The notes under the pieces were generated by a model, which was given only the letters and a program-made list of their open reading frames with translations, searched no databases and was not told the origin of the DNA. This document shows positions 11,083 through 44,559 of a stretch of DNA of 64,000 nt, piece by piece. This DNA is from Deferribacterales bacterium Deferri_01 (lineage in GTDB: Bacteria; Chrysiogenota; Deferribacteres; Deferribacterales; Geovibrionaceae): NCBI GenBank assembly GCA_001603805.1, contig LUZY01000008.1, positions 124,001-188,000 on the forward strand. The letters run 5' to 3'. The first letter of the stretch is position 1; each line of letters opens with the position of its first letter. The translations under genes and the position numbers were made by a program.

Positions 11083-11156
11083 TGGCGGTGCAGGGACTTG
11101 AACCCCGGACACTGCGGATATGAGCCGCATGCTCTAACCACCTGAGCTACACCGCC
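11083..11156 (-). tRNA. tRNA-Met (CAT), probably elongator type
   Basis: The minus strand folds as a complete cloverleaf. The acceptor stem is GGCGGTG / CACCGCC, the D arm GCTC...GAGC with GGTGG in the loop, and the anticodon stem TGCGG / CCGCA with loop CTCATAT (anticodon CAT). The T arm is CGGGG-TTCAAGT-CCCTG. A G1:C72 pair rules out an initiator tRNA. CAT could also be tRNA-Ile2 read after lysidine modification; the variable loop GTGTC and anticodon stem favour elongator Met. The 3' CCA is not encoded: the base after the acceptor stem is A, then TTA. Confidence 0.95.
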
Positions 11157-20477: not shown

Positions 20478-20749
20478 TGAAAAGGCTTGCGATACGTGTT
20501 AAAGGGCGTGTGCAGGGGGTCGGCTACAGGGCATTTCTCCACAACGGAGTTGTTCCTCTTGGTGTGGGAGGCTATGTGCGCAACCTTTCTGACGGAAGCG
20601 TGGAGATCATAGCAGAAGGTACGGAGGCGCAGCTAAACGAAGTGCTGAAAAAAGCCCGTGCCGGTTCCCCATTTTCAGAGGTTACGGACATGACTGTGGT
20701 TGAGGAAAAACCCACAGGCGAGTTTGAAACATTTGAGATAATACACTGA
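20477..20749 (+). CDS. acyP: Acylphosphatase
   Basis: A 90-residue enzyme that hydrolyses acyl phosphates. It has the signature VKGRVQGVGYRAFLHN at about 8-23, with the catalytic Arg in GVGYR, and the Asn of GGYVRNLSDGSVE at about 31-43. The start overlaps the previous stop by one base and its own stop overlaps the next start. The physiological role is uncertain in bacteria generally. Confidence 0.95.
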   Translation: MKRLAIRVKGRVQGVGYRAFLHNGVVPLGVGGYVRNLSDGSVEIIAEGTEAQLNEVLKKARAGSPFSEVTDMTVVEEKPTGEFETFEIIH

Positions 20750-22403: not shown

Positions 22404-22413
22404 ATAACCACAT

Positions 22414-22495
22414 CCGTGGGGGTGCTTGCCGATGAAAGGGCAGGCTGAGAGAGTCCCCGTAACCTGATCCGGATAATGCCGGCGTAGGGAAACGG
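22414..22495 (+). promoter_or_regulatory. TPP riboswitch (THI element)
   Basis: All conserved THI-box blocks are present in order: GGGGGTGC, GCTGAGAGAG, then AACCTGATCCGGATAATGCC and GGCGTAGGGAA. The outer P1 stem is CCGT / ACGG. It senses thiamine pyrophosphate and lies 91 bp before thiC. No strong terminator hairpin with a T run follows. CCTGC (22541-22545) can pair with GCAGG at the thiC ribosome site (22573-22577), so control of translation is the more likely mechanism; that last point is inference. Confidence 0.97.
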
Positions 22496-22586
22496 TTTTT
22501 CTTCTTTAGTCTATTCCAAGCCTTTTTCACCCAGCCTGTTCCTGCGGAATATAATCAATAGTTCACTTAAAGGCAGGTATAAATTC

Positions 22587-36632: not shown

Positions 36633-38857
36633 CAAATACTTACATTATACGAATCAAAGGGATTGTGCAGGGTGTCGGCTTCCGCCCGTTTGTGTATCAG
36701 CTTGCTTCGGATAAGGGGTTAAAGGGCTATGTGCTTAATGACTCAGCCGGAGTGGAGATAGGGGTTGAATGTCCGTATGAAGCAGCCGCAGGGTTTGCCG
36801 ATGAAGTCAGAAGGCTTGCCCCTCCTCTTTCACACATAGTTTCTGTTAAAATAACAGAAGGGGTGGAAAATGGTTTTCACGGCTTTGAAATCAGAGAATC
36901 TGAGAATACTGACGGTCTGACACTGGTTTCCCCTGATGTGGCTATATGCCCGGACTGCCGCAGAGAACTGTTTGACAAATCAGACAGACGCTATAAGTAC
37001 CCCTTCATAAACTGCACCAATTGCGGACCCAGATATTCCATAATAAAAGCAATACCCTACGATAGAAAAATGACAACAATGAGCAGTTTTGCCATGTGCA
37101 GAGACTGCGAATCAGAATATAAAAACCCTGCTGACAGACGTTTTCATGCACAGCCTGACTGCTGTCCGGTCTGCGGACCGCAGGTCTACGGCTTCGGGCT
37201 AAACGGGGATGATGCTTTACAGGCGGCGGCTGATGCTGTGAATAAAGGCGAAATCCTCGCCATGAAGGGCTTGGGCGGTTACCATCTAATTTGTGACGCT
37301 ATGAACGATTCTGCTGTTAACAGACTGCGGGAGCTTAAGCGCAGGGGCGAAAAACCATTCGCCGTGATGTGTGCTGATGCGGTTGTACTCGAAAAATACC
37401 GCCCTTTGAGCGATACAGAAAAAAATATAATCACAAGTCCGCAGGCTCCGGTTCTCCTTCTGGACTGGGATAATCCTCCTTTTTCCACCGCAGTAAACCC
37501 CATGGGGAGCAATGTAGGCGTCATGACAGCCTATACCCCTCTCCATGCTGTGCTGATGAGCCGTCTTGATACGGACTTTATAATAGCCACAAGCGGAAAC
37601 CTGCGTGATGAGCCTATCTGCATAAATGAAGCAGAGGCGGAAGAAAAACTGAAGCATTATACGGATAAATTCCTTCATCATAACAGAGATATACATAACA
37701 GAGTGGATGACTCCGTGGCGGCAGTTGCCTGCGGTTTTCCATATGTTCTGCGCCGTGCAAGGGGCTTTGCGCCCTATCCTGTGATGCTGCCTTTTGAGGC
37801 GGATATACCCGTGGCGGGTGCGGGAGCGCATCTTAAAAACGGGATCTGCTTCGCCTCCGGCGGATACGCATTTCCGGGGCAGTACATAGGCGACCTTGAC
37901 AACCCCGAAACACGGGACTTTTATGCCGAAACATGGGATAAAATGCGTCTGTTGCTCGGCATAGAGCCAAAGAAGATTATTACAGATACTCACCCTGATT
38001 ATTTCAGCACCCGATTTGCCGCAGAAACAGGGATTGAGACCGTTACTTTGCAGCATCATCTGGCGCATTTTTATGCTGTTCTGGGAGAAAACGGACACAC
38101 CGGCGATTCTTTAGGGCTGATACTGGACGGAACCGGACTCGGAACAGACGGACGGATATGGGGCGGAGAACTATTTGTCAGGAAAGATAAAACCGTGACA
38201 CGTTCCACTCATTTGCCGTATATTTTACAGCCTGCTATGGATACTGCGGCGAAAAAGCCCGTGATGATGCTTGTTTCGCTGATGAAGGCATACGGGCTGG
38301 AAGAATACACTGATTTTCTTTACGAAAGATTTCCTCAGATGCAGACTGTTCTGAAACTCACTGAAAAAATAGTGGAAACAAGGCTGAACTCCATCGAAAC
38401 CTCCAGCACCGGGAGGCTTTTTGAGGCAGCAGGGACTCTGGTTTCAGGTATAGCAGAAAATGATTTTGAAGCACATCTGGCGATAAAGCTGGAATATATG
38501 GCGGATAAAACTGTCACAGACTATTATGATACAGGTGAAATGAATCCGGCGGGGCTGTTTGATGGGCTTTTTCATGACCTGACATCCGGCGTTCCGCAGT
38601 CCGTATGCTCCGCAAGATTCCACAACGGTTTTGCCCGCATGCTCCTGAATGCCTGCATTAAACATGGCAGCGGAATAAAGCATGTAGCTCTCTCCGGCGG
38701 TGTGTTCCAGAATATGCTTCTGCTTGAGCGAGTTACATCTCTCCTGAAAGCAAACGGATTCTCCCCCCTGATTCACGGCAGAATTCCTGCTAATGACGGT
38801 TGTATCTCCCTTGGGCAGATCTGCGGTTATGTTTATGGTGATAGGATAAATTTTTAA
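36629..38857 (+). CDS. hypF: [NiFe]-hydrogenase maturation carbamoyltransferase HypF
   Basis: HypF makes thiocarbamate on HypE from carbamoyl phosphate, for the cyanide ligands of [NiFe] hydrogenases. The 742-residue protein has all domains: acylphosphatase (GIVQGVGFRPFVYQ at about 9-22), two zinc fingers (CPDC and CTNC near 105-135, CRDC and CPVC near 155-185), YrdC-like ATP-binding (about 195-380), and the Kae1-like carbamoyltransferase (HHLAHFYA near 475, LDGTGLGTDG near 495). ATG 36629 overlaps the trkH stop. No other hyp or hydrogenase gene is in the window, so the target enzyme is elsewhere. Its last 61 bp are copied downstream at 38965-39025. Confidence 0.96.
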   Translation: MTNTYIIRIKGIVQGVGFRPFVYQLASDKGLKGYVLNDSAGVEIGVECPYEAAAGFADEVRRLAPPLSHIVSVKITEGVENGFHGFEIRESENTDGLTLVSPDVAICPDCRRELFDKSDRRYKYPFINCTNCGPRYSIIKAIPYDRKMTTMSSFAMCRDCESEYKNPADRRFHAQPDCCPVCGPQVYGFGLNGDDALQAAADAVNKGEILAMKGLGGYHLICDAMNDSAVNRLRELKRRGEKPFAVMCADAVVLEKYRPLSDTEKNIITSPQAPVLLLDWDNPPFSTAVNPMGSNVGVMTAYTPLHAVLMSRLDTDFIIATSGNLRDEPICINEAEAEEKLKHYTDKFLHHNRDIHNRVDDSVAAVACGFPYVLRRARGFAPYPVMLPFEADIPVAGAGAHLKNGICFASGGYAFPGQYIGDLDNPETRDFYAETWDKMRLLLGIEPKKIITDTHPDYFSTRFAAETGIETVTLQHHLAHFYAVLGENGHTGDSLGLILDGTGLGTDGRIWGGELFVRKDKTVTRSTHLPYILQPAMDTAAKKPVMMLVSLMKAYGLEEYTDFLYERFPQMQTVLKLTEKIVETRLNSIETSSTGRLFEAAGTLVSGIAENDFEAHLAIKLEYMADKTVTDYYDTGEMNPAGLFDGLFHDLTSGVPQSVCSARFHNGFARMLLNACIKHGSGIKHVALSGGVFQNMLLLERVTSLLKANGFSPLIHGRIPANDGCISLGQICGYVYGDRINF

Positions 38858-38859
38858 AC

Positions 38860-38953
38860 TGATGCCATGGATGGCATCACGTCGTGCGTAGCGAAGCCTT
38901 GTTTTACAAGGCGCGAGCGTGTACATCAGCCTGACAGGATGTACAGGCTGATG
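38860..38953 (+). ncRNA. Three-hairpin GGA-loop repeat element, copy A (candidate CsrA-binding RNA)
   Basis: This 94-bp element starts 2 bp after the hypF stop. Hairpin 1 (38860-38879) is TGATGCC / GGCATCA with loop ATGGAT. Hairpin 2 (38896-38912) is GCCTTG / CAAGGC. Hairpin 3 (38924-38953) is a perfect 10-bp stem CATCAGCCTG / CAGGCTGATG with loop ACAGGATGTA. The linkers (CGTGCGTAGCGAA and GCGAGCGTGT) match those of the array at 44191-44559, but the stems have different bases and still pair. Loops with a GGA core on stems are how CsrA is bound in CsrB-type RNAs. Strand is given as plus because GGA loops appear there and hypF reads into it. Transcription and function are inferred. Confidence 0.6.
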
Positions 38954-38964
38954 CTGATAATACA

Positions 38965-39025
38965 GACGGTTGTATCTCCCTTGGGCAGATCTACGGTTAT
39001 GTTTATGGTGATAGAATAAATTTTT
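38965..39025 (+). repeat. Duplicated 3' end of hypF
   Basis: These 61 bp repeat 38795-38855, the last codons of hypF, with two mismatches (59 of 61 identical). The GGA-hairpin element lies exactly between the two copies. It is not a gene; it looks like a remnant of duplication linked with the element. The rest of the gap, 39026-39216, is A+T-rich and shows nothing I can name beyond the lnt upstream region. Confidence 0.85.
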
Positions 39026-39216
39026 GATAAAAATTCTATATTTTGAAAATTATTTACTTAATAAATAGTTATAGTGTTGAAGAAATATGTTTTAGAGAAA
39101 CCCTTCAAAAACTCATTCGCTTTGCGGATGTGCTGAATAAAGTTACTTCGTAAGGTATGACGGCTGAAAAATGTCCGTCTTTACCTTCGGTTTTCCAGAG
39201 GCGGTATATATTCATT

Positions 39217-44176: not shown

Positions 44177-44190
44177 GGTATGTTGGTTAC

Positions 44191-44559
44191 GGCGCGAGCG
44201 TGTGCTTAAAACTGACAGGATGTGCAATTTTAAGCTATGTAAATTTACAACTCCAAGGATGGAGTTGCGCCGTGTGAAGCGAAGCCGCATTAATTGCGGC
44301 GCGAGCGTGTGCTTAAAACTGACAGGATGTGCAATTTTAAGCTATGTAAATTTACAACTCCAAGGATGGAGTTGCGCCGTGTGAAGCGAAGCCGCATTAA
44401 TTGCGGCGCGAGCGTGTGCTTAAAACTGACAGGATGTGCAGTTTTAAGCTATGTAAATTTACAACTCCAAGGATGGAGTTGCGCCGTGCGAAGCGAAGCC
44501 GCATTTACTGCGGCGCGAGCGTGTGCTTAAAACTGACAGGATGTTCAGTTTTAAGCTAT
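44191..44559 (+). ncRNA. Tandem array of GGA-loop hairpins, 107-bp period (candidate CsrA-sequestering RNA)
   Basis: The block GGCGCGAGCGTGTGCTTAAA begins at 44191, 44298, 44405 and 44512, an exact 107-bp period, giving 3.4 near-identical units. Each unit folds into three hairpins. Type 3 (GCTTAAAACTG / CAGTTTTAAGC, loop ACAGGATGTG or close) occurs at 44204, 44311, 44418 and 44525. Type 1 (CAACTCC / GGAGTTG, loop AAGGAT) occurs at 44248, 44355 and 44462. Type 2 (GCCGCA / TGCGGC) has no GGA. That makes seven GGA-bearing loops in 370 nt. The element after hypF has the same order, loops and linkers but different, still-paired stems. It could be the 3' UTR of the gene at 43337-44176 or an independent RNA; no promoter is evident within it. 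Confidence 0.7.

Follow-up and report, generated by a model that had tools for sequence, protein, structure and literature searches.

A genus-specific mobile intergenic element with selection on RNA structure and candidate CsrA-binding loops in a Deferribacterales bacterium

Within the 64,000-nucleotide window analysed here, a unit of three hairpins at the 3' end of hypF (38860-38953) recurs in a tandem array at 44190-44559, and the two loci have their loops and linkers in common but not the sequences of their three stems, which remain paired. This raises the question of whether the unit is maintained as a structured RNA or as a repeat of the DNA, and what its constant loops might bind. A preliminary description had taken the loci for copies of one element with kept linkers, unchanged loops and compensated stems, and the sequence reads as it claimed; covariation between two loci alone would prove little, and the comparison was extended to all copies in this genome and its relatives.

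Architecture of the element in the window

The element consists of hairpin 1 (apex CCA(T/A)GGATGG), linker CGYCGTGYGWAGCGAAG, hairpin 2, linker GCGAGCGTGT and hairpin 3 (apex ACAGGATGT), in this order (Table 1). Hairpin 3 of the hypF copy (38924-38953) is CATCAGCCTG/CAGGCTGATG and that of the array is CTTAAAACTG/CAGTTTTAAG; 4 of the 10 stem positions are changed and all 4 are compensated, in agreement with the earlier count, which had overlooked the single unpaired base directly 3' of the loop and the one A-C mismatch left in array copy 1 and the 5' partial copy, both of which read CAATTTTAAG. The stems of hairpins 1 and 2 likewise differ by compensated changes, as had been noted. The RNA of the hypF copy folded better than any of its 200 shuffled versions (z = -4.75).

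Three further features were observed elsewhere in the window: a short direct repeat of 76% identity (20492-20536 and 36647-36691), the first copy of which is probably a separate acylphosphatase gene because the second sits in the acylphosphatase domain of HypF; a TPP riboswitch at 22408-22508 (Rfam RF00059, 66.2 bits); and a minus-strand tRNA gene with the anticodon loop CTCATAT at 11083-11156 (Rfam RF00005).

Table 1. Coordinates of the element, its parts and its flanks in the window
Feature	Position	Strand	Remark
Left copy of 61-bp target duplication: hypF 3' end up to the insertion point	38795-38855	+	97% identity to 38965-39025
Inserted element at the hypF locus, 109 nt	38856-38964	+	Between the duplicated segments; covariance model R1, 107 bits
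Hairpin 1, loop ATGGAT (CA-N-GGA-TG)	38860-38879	+	GGA in hairpin 1 loop of 311/342 copies
Linker 1, CGTCGTGCGTAGCGAA	38880-38895	+	Consensus positions 95-100% conserved except free position 32
CGTGC in linker 1, 5' arm of long-range stem	38883-38887	+	RNAalifold pairing with linker 2
Hairpin 2, GCCTTG/CAAGGC	38896-38912	+	99% of cells paired; both-sided changes at 5/6 pairs
Linker 2, GCGAGCGTGT	38913-38922	+	90-100% conserved in 342 copies; substitutions mostly pairing-preserving as G-U
GCGTG in linker 2, 3' arm of long-range stem	38917-38921	+	RNAalifold pairing with linker 1
Hairpin 3, loop ACAGGATGT	38923-38954	+	Loop CAGGA(T/A/C)G in 282/342 copies, GGA in 321/342
Right copy of 61-bp target duplication, with the former HypF C-terminus and its TGA stop	38965-39025	+	Second HypF match (residues 239-260)
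5'-truncated first copy of tandem array	44190-44243	+	TRF period 107 from 44190; weak R1 match
Array copy 1	44246-44345	+	R1, 106 bits
Array copy 2	44353-44452	+	R1, 110 bits
Array copy 3	44460-44559	+	R1, 113 bits, best in the genome

Distribution and mobility

An exact-linker pattern matched 35 times in this genome (G000), the reversed control pattern not at all, and the covariance model R1 gave 142 matches. The 139 matches with E<0.03 formed 68 clusters, every one of them confined to a single strand (68/68) and 44 of them holding two to five copies. Copies with the exact linker pair numbered 71 in G000, 88 and 224 in its congeners G004 and G005, respectively, and zero in nine genomes of three sister genera. 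R1 also detected weaker cousins in the sister-genus genomes G002 and G006 and in another family (G036 and G039), which keep GGA-loop outer hairpins around a different centre and have other linkers; the element is genus-specific, and the sister genera have diverged cousins only. Cousins lie at L161, L162, L168 and L169 (G036, G039) and at L164 and other loci of G006, where the copies have one or two additional inner hairpins. A search of Rfam, which the preliminary description had proposed, returned no family for the element: no model reached its gathering score, a relaxed threshold of E<10 brought up nothing relevant, and nine further loci with copies or cousins were likewise without a match. 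A wide distribution was rejected, since unrelated species had only five isolated, chance-like occurrences of the exact linker pair, in a scan that may omit this genome or very near ones. A phage origin was rejected, the linker pair having no matches in viral contigs, and no description of this element was found in the literature. A second, unrelated intergenic repeat family (GTCATTCTGAGG..., GCGAAGCAATCTC... and CCCCCTTTATAAAAGGGG) was seen in intergenic regions of G004 and G005 (L201, L196 and L287), often beside the element or in its place.

The element is mobile. At the hypF border both congeners hold the 61-bp sequence once and have no element, so the hypF copy arose by insertion, which duplicated 61 bp of the target. 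Flanking duplications at other loci are not of fixed length (28 to 68 bp), and the cleanest of the further empty sites is a gap between two operon genes (L144), where the flank matches of the element-free G004 site lie six bases apart. The unit of the arrays is host flank plus element. The 3' tail has a fixed end and the approximate sequence TAWNAAG(T/G)(A)CA; of 37 distinct duplicated host segments, 14 begin with GA. No common inverted ends were seen in the copies read. In four arrays of G000 (L118, L140, L107 and L159) the first copy is truncated at its 5' side, with the broken edge near the stop codon of the upstream gene.

Candidate engines were then weighed. The Y1 transposase profile (PF01797) had no match in G000 while the controls were detected, and RAYT/IS200 was rejected as the mover on the strength of this one genome. 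A single reverse transcriptase (PF00078) is present in G000 and none in G004 or G005; reverse transcription was rejected as the engine because these two genomes lack RVT_1, although G005 has the most copies. Copying of hairpin 3 from the target site, hinted at by L161, L168 and L157, was discarded since the upstream matches resemble older 5'-truncated copies of the element. The insertion of so small an element, with a fixed 3' end, such variable target duplications and no obvious enzyme, constitutes a mechanistic problem.

Empty sites, the fixed tail end and the recurrent initial GA would all suit selfish, MITE-like DNA, whose hairpins, loops and linkers would act as signals for a transposition or recombination protein on single-stranded DNA, with incidental effects at the RNA level and a sense placement at gene borders that reflects insertion specificity and harmlessness. 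Also found in the linkers are GCGAAGC and GCGAGC, sequences that as DNA fold into mini-hairpins of high stability. The missing Y1 transposase of G000 and the missing reverse transcriptase of G004 and G005 count against this explanation, as do the substitution patterns described below, and we consider it unlikely.

Hairpin exchange and RNA-level selection

To what extent the differing stems record base-by-base compensation depends on how the hairpins are inherited. Across 98 clusters (G000 and the first G005 sample) there were 59 distinct arms of hairpin 1, 29 of hairpin 2 and 84 of hairpin 3. Among the 296 cluster pairs with a common hairpin 2, hairpin 1 was also common in 11 and hairpin 3 in 2, and array neighbours can have two identical hairpins while the third differs wholly. 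In a set of 41 orthologous clusters from the three species (G000, G004 and G005; flank identity 82%), at least one hairpin was kept in 30, and in 25 of these 30 another hairpin had been replaced with the linkers intact. This is most economically read as copies recombining with, or converting, one another, with the linkers as anchors. Because whole hairpins swap between copies, covariation over all copies mixes cassette exchange with true compensation, and R-scape applied to all genomic copies would overstate stepwise covariation. The same caution concerns repeat copies at large, whose covariation can come from whole-hairpin exchange beyond base-by-base compensation.

In an alignment of 16 copies, each from a separate locus, standard pairs filled 94.3% of the pair cells compared with 70.6% after shuffling, and the covariation score was 0.628 compared with 0.174 (0 of 500 shuffles reached 0.628; slid-register controls, 0.078-0.129). 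Without a given structure, RNAalifold returned from this alignment the three hairpins and a long-range linker-linker stem, CGUGC/GCGUG, with both-sided changes at 21 of the 34 pairs. The pattern of linker changes described below further suggests a centre made up of an outer stem, then a G-H-A/G-A internal loop, then a two-pair stem followed by a GAA bulge and hairpin 2, with a putative three-dimensional motif; the middle base of the internal loop is free, as column 32 varies to all four bases.

Inverted repeats can be maintained at the DNA level as well, and RNA tolerates a G-U pair but not its mirror, A-C. At linker positions that RNAalifold pairs across the linkers, C-to-T changes, which keep the pair as G-U, outnumbered G-to-A changes, most of which create A-C, by 48 to 16 (cluster counts). 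At unpaired linker positions the order was reversed, with 5 C-to-T and 18 G-to-A changes. The two classes of position differ at Fisher P = 1e-5, and at P = 0.008 when the dominant column 57 is left out. Strand-biased deamination would hit both classes alike, and the asymmetry therefore supports an RNA of the given strand together with the long-range stem; its confinement to positions paired in RNA counts against selfish DNA. Single-sided stem changes within arrays likewise favoured G-U over A-C (31 and 14, respectively; P = 0.016), while in orthologous hairpin stems the two were equal (11 each), which counts against an RNA-acting, CsrA-binding element. Eighteen double Watson-Crick changes remain when the comparison is restricted to kept orthologous hairpins, and the compensation is therefore real.

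Taken together, the pair counts, these 18 double changes and the linker asymmetry support RNA-level selection on the element, as the preliminary description had proposed. True compensations occur in the orthologous hairpins, while most stem differences turned out to be whole-hairpin replacements rather than stepwise changes. Its argument against a simple DNA repeat is incomplete, since the element is at the same time a mobile repeat, dispersed through the genome, for which empty sites exist in congeners and whose target duplications are long.

Candidate CsrA binding at gene borders

To place the element relative to genes, 177 clusters were compared with ORFs; these counts are not genome-wide rates because the G005 and G004 stretches were partly picked for holding copies. 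The 5' edge of the first copy fell within -12 to +6 nt of the stop codon of a co-directional ORF of at least 100 codons in 47 clusters, compared with 24 in the antisense control, and a Shine-Dalgarno site with an ORF start followed the 3' edge of the last copy within 30 nt in 29 clusters, compared with 1 in antisense. From this sense bias we infer that the elements lie mostly inside transcripts, at cistron borders. No intrinsic terminator (G+C-rich hairpin with T run) was present in 38700-39200.

The outer loops point to a candidate partner. CsrB repeats carry CAGGA(U/A/C)G, and the SELEX consensus of CsrA is RUACARGGAUGU (PMC7652899); the loop motif of hairpin 3 is the same as the CsrB repeat motif and near the SELEX consensus, 147 of the 184 copies scored for hairpin 1 have a loop of the form CA(N)GGANG, and the GGA loops of the outer hairpins (Table 1) agree with the CA(R)GGAUG context of CsrA-binding RNAs. 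Between orthologs, a change was seen at 1 of 117 GGA sites but at 21 of 181 sites elsewhere in the loops (P = 0.0002), and linkers changed by 4.0% (2.5% without column 32) compared with 18% in the flanks. A csrA gene lies at C8:120351-120506 of G000 (PF02599, 5.5e-25; L031), about 3.6 kb before the window, and csrA (76-77 aa) is directly downstream of fliW (159 aa), a pair known from flagellin control. Within the order, each of the 13 genomes with element matches has csrA, and none of the 8 genomes that lack csrA has the element, a co-occurrence that is suggestive and confounded by ancestry. Some copies share the layout of the glgC leader, a GGA hairpin followed by a Shine-Dalgarno site; in glgC, a CsrA dimer bridges the high-affinity hairpin and the Shine-Dalgarno site (PMC7652899). 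On the basis of the loop motif, the conservation of GGA, the GGA loops still present in the cousins, the csrA co-occurrence and the glgC-like layout, we read the element as a mobile, putatively CsrA-binding module, the outer loops CA(N)GGA(N)G being the predicted contacts and an effect on the mRNA the presumed consequence.

Other measurements weigh against binding. The SELEX-optimal CsrA stem has about four pairs (PMC7652899), and the stems of the element are longer. Within arrays, elements diverged by 1.7% and spacers by 0.9%, so that purifying selection relative to the spacers was not seen there, and the GGA of hairpin 3 is unprotected, changes in it being not rare. This lack of better conservation than the spacers favours selfish DNA; it could mean that the array copies are redundant or that the element is for the most part selfish. 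Pointing the other way are the rarity of GGA changes between orthologs and the identity of the loops to CsrA sites.

We therefore weigh the readings as follows. The account that we favour, with modest confidence, is of a mobile intergenic element, specific to the genus, that functions as an RNA, putatively as a CsrA-binding mRNA module at gene borders. The unit, about 109 nt long and comprising three hairpins, inserts in sense at gene borders with duplication of 28-68 bp of target and multiplies in tandem, and its hairpins are exchanged between copies as cassettes. Its two outer GGA loops would bind CsrA, and the central hairpin, closed by the linker-linker stem, would space them so that one CsrA dimer could bridge both; alternatively, the dimer could bridge hairpin 3 and the following Shine-Dalgarno site. 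Each insertion would bring the translation or stability of its mRNA under CsrA, and the copies would jointly titrate the protein. Against this account, a CsrA sponge is not needed for control since the organism has FliW, the antagonist of CsrA in other bacteria.

A REP/BIME-like mRNA element, whose stable hairpins would protect 3' ends or insulate cistrons independently of CsrA, would account for stable co-oriented hairpins right after stop codons and within operons and for the lack of an intrinsic terminator at the hypF copy; it leaves unexplained the fixed GGA loops, the non-canonical G-H-A/G-A loop of the central hairpin and the invariant linkers, and appears improbable. GGA pairs with the anti-Shine-Dalgarno sequence of 16S rRNA, and the 3' end frequently adjoins the true Shine-Dalgarno site of the next gene (29 sense, 1 antisense), yet loops that act as decoy or standby sites loading ribosomes on the downstream gene are very improbable, given that GGA is enclosed in hairpin loops, that the flanking CA..G pattern is unnecessary for rRNA pairing and that many copies have no gene start after them.

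A further-reaching form of the favoured account, offered tentatively, is a mobile RNA operator: a self-spreading CsrA platform with hairpins renewed as cassettes across invariant linkers and an insertion that duplicates tens of base pairs independently of Y1 transposase and reverse transcriptase, which would rewire the Csr regulon species by species. If true, a CsrA-binding platform stands at dozens to more than 100 gene borders per genome, and, if CsrA binds, transposition alone would add operons to a global post-transcriptional network, for which the three related genomes provide natural before-and-after states.

Relative to known systems, the element resembles CsrB/CsrC and RsmY/RsmZ, in which hairpins likewise recur with loops of the form CAGGA(U/A/C)G or ANGGA (PMC7652899). 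Each of those is a single trans-acting sRNA, whereas the element comprises more than 100 dispersed and mobile cis copies in mRNAs, has a conserved central hairpin and does not match their Rfam models. As in CsrA-repressed leaders such as glgC, a GGA hairpin lies just upstream of the Shine-Dalgarno site and dimer-bridging is possible (PMC7652899); unlike the glgC leader, its hairpins form a standard mobile module at many unrelated operons, and CsrA binding is putative. With REP, BIME and REPIN sequences and their RAYT, it has in common small palindromic intergenic repeats, tandem arrays and an extragenic position, but G000 has no Y1 (RAYT-type) transposase, and the element has three hairpins with fixed linkers and 28-68 bp target duplications. 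Like MITEs and small interspersed repeats such as BOX and RUP, it is non-autonomous and dispersed and duplicates its target on insertion; in contrast to them, no terminal inverted repeats were seen, its stems vary between copies, and its duplications are far longer than those of DDE transposases.
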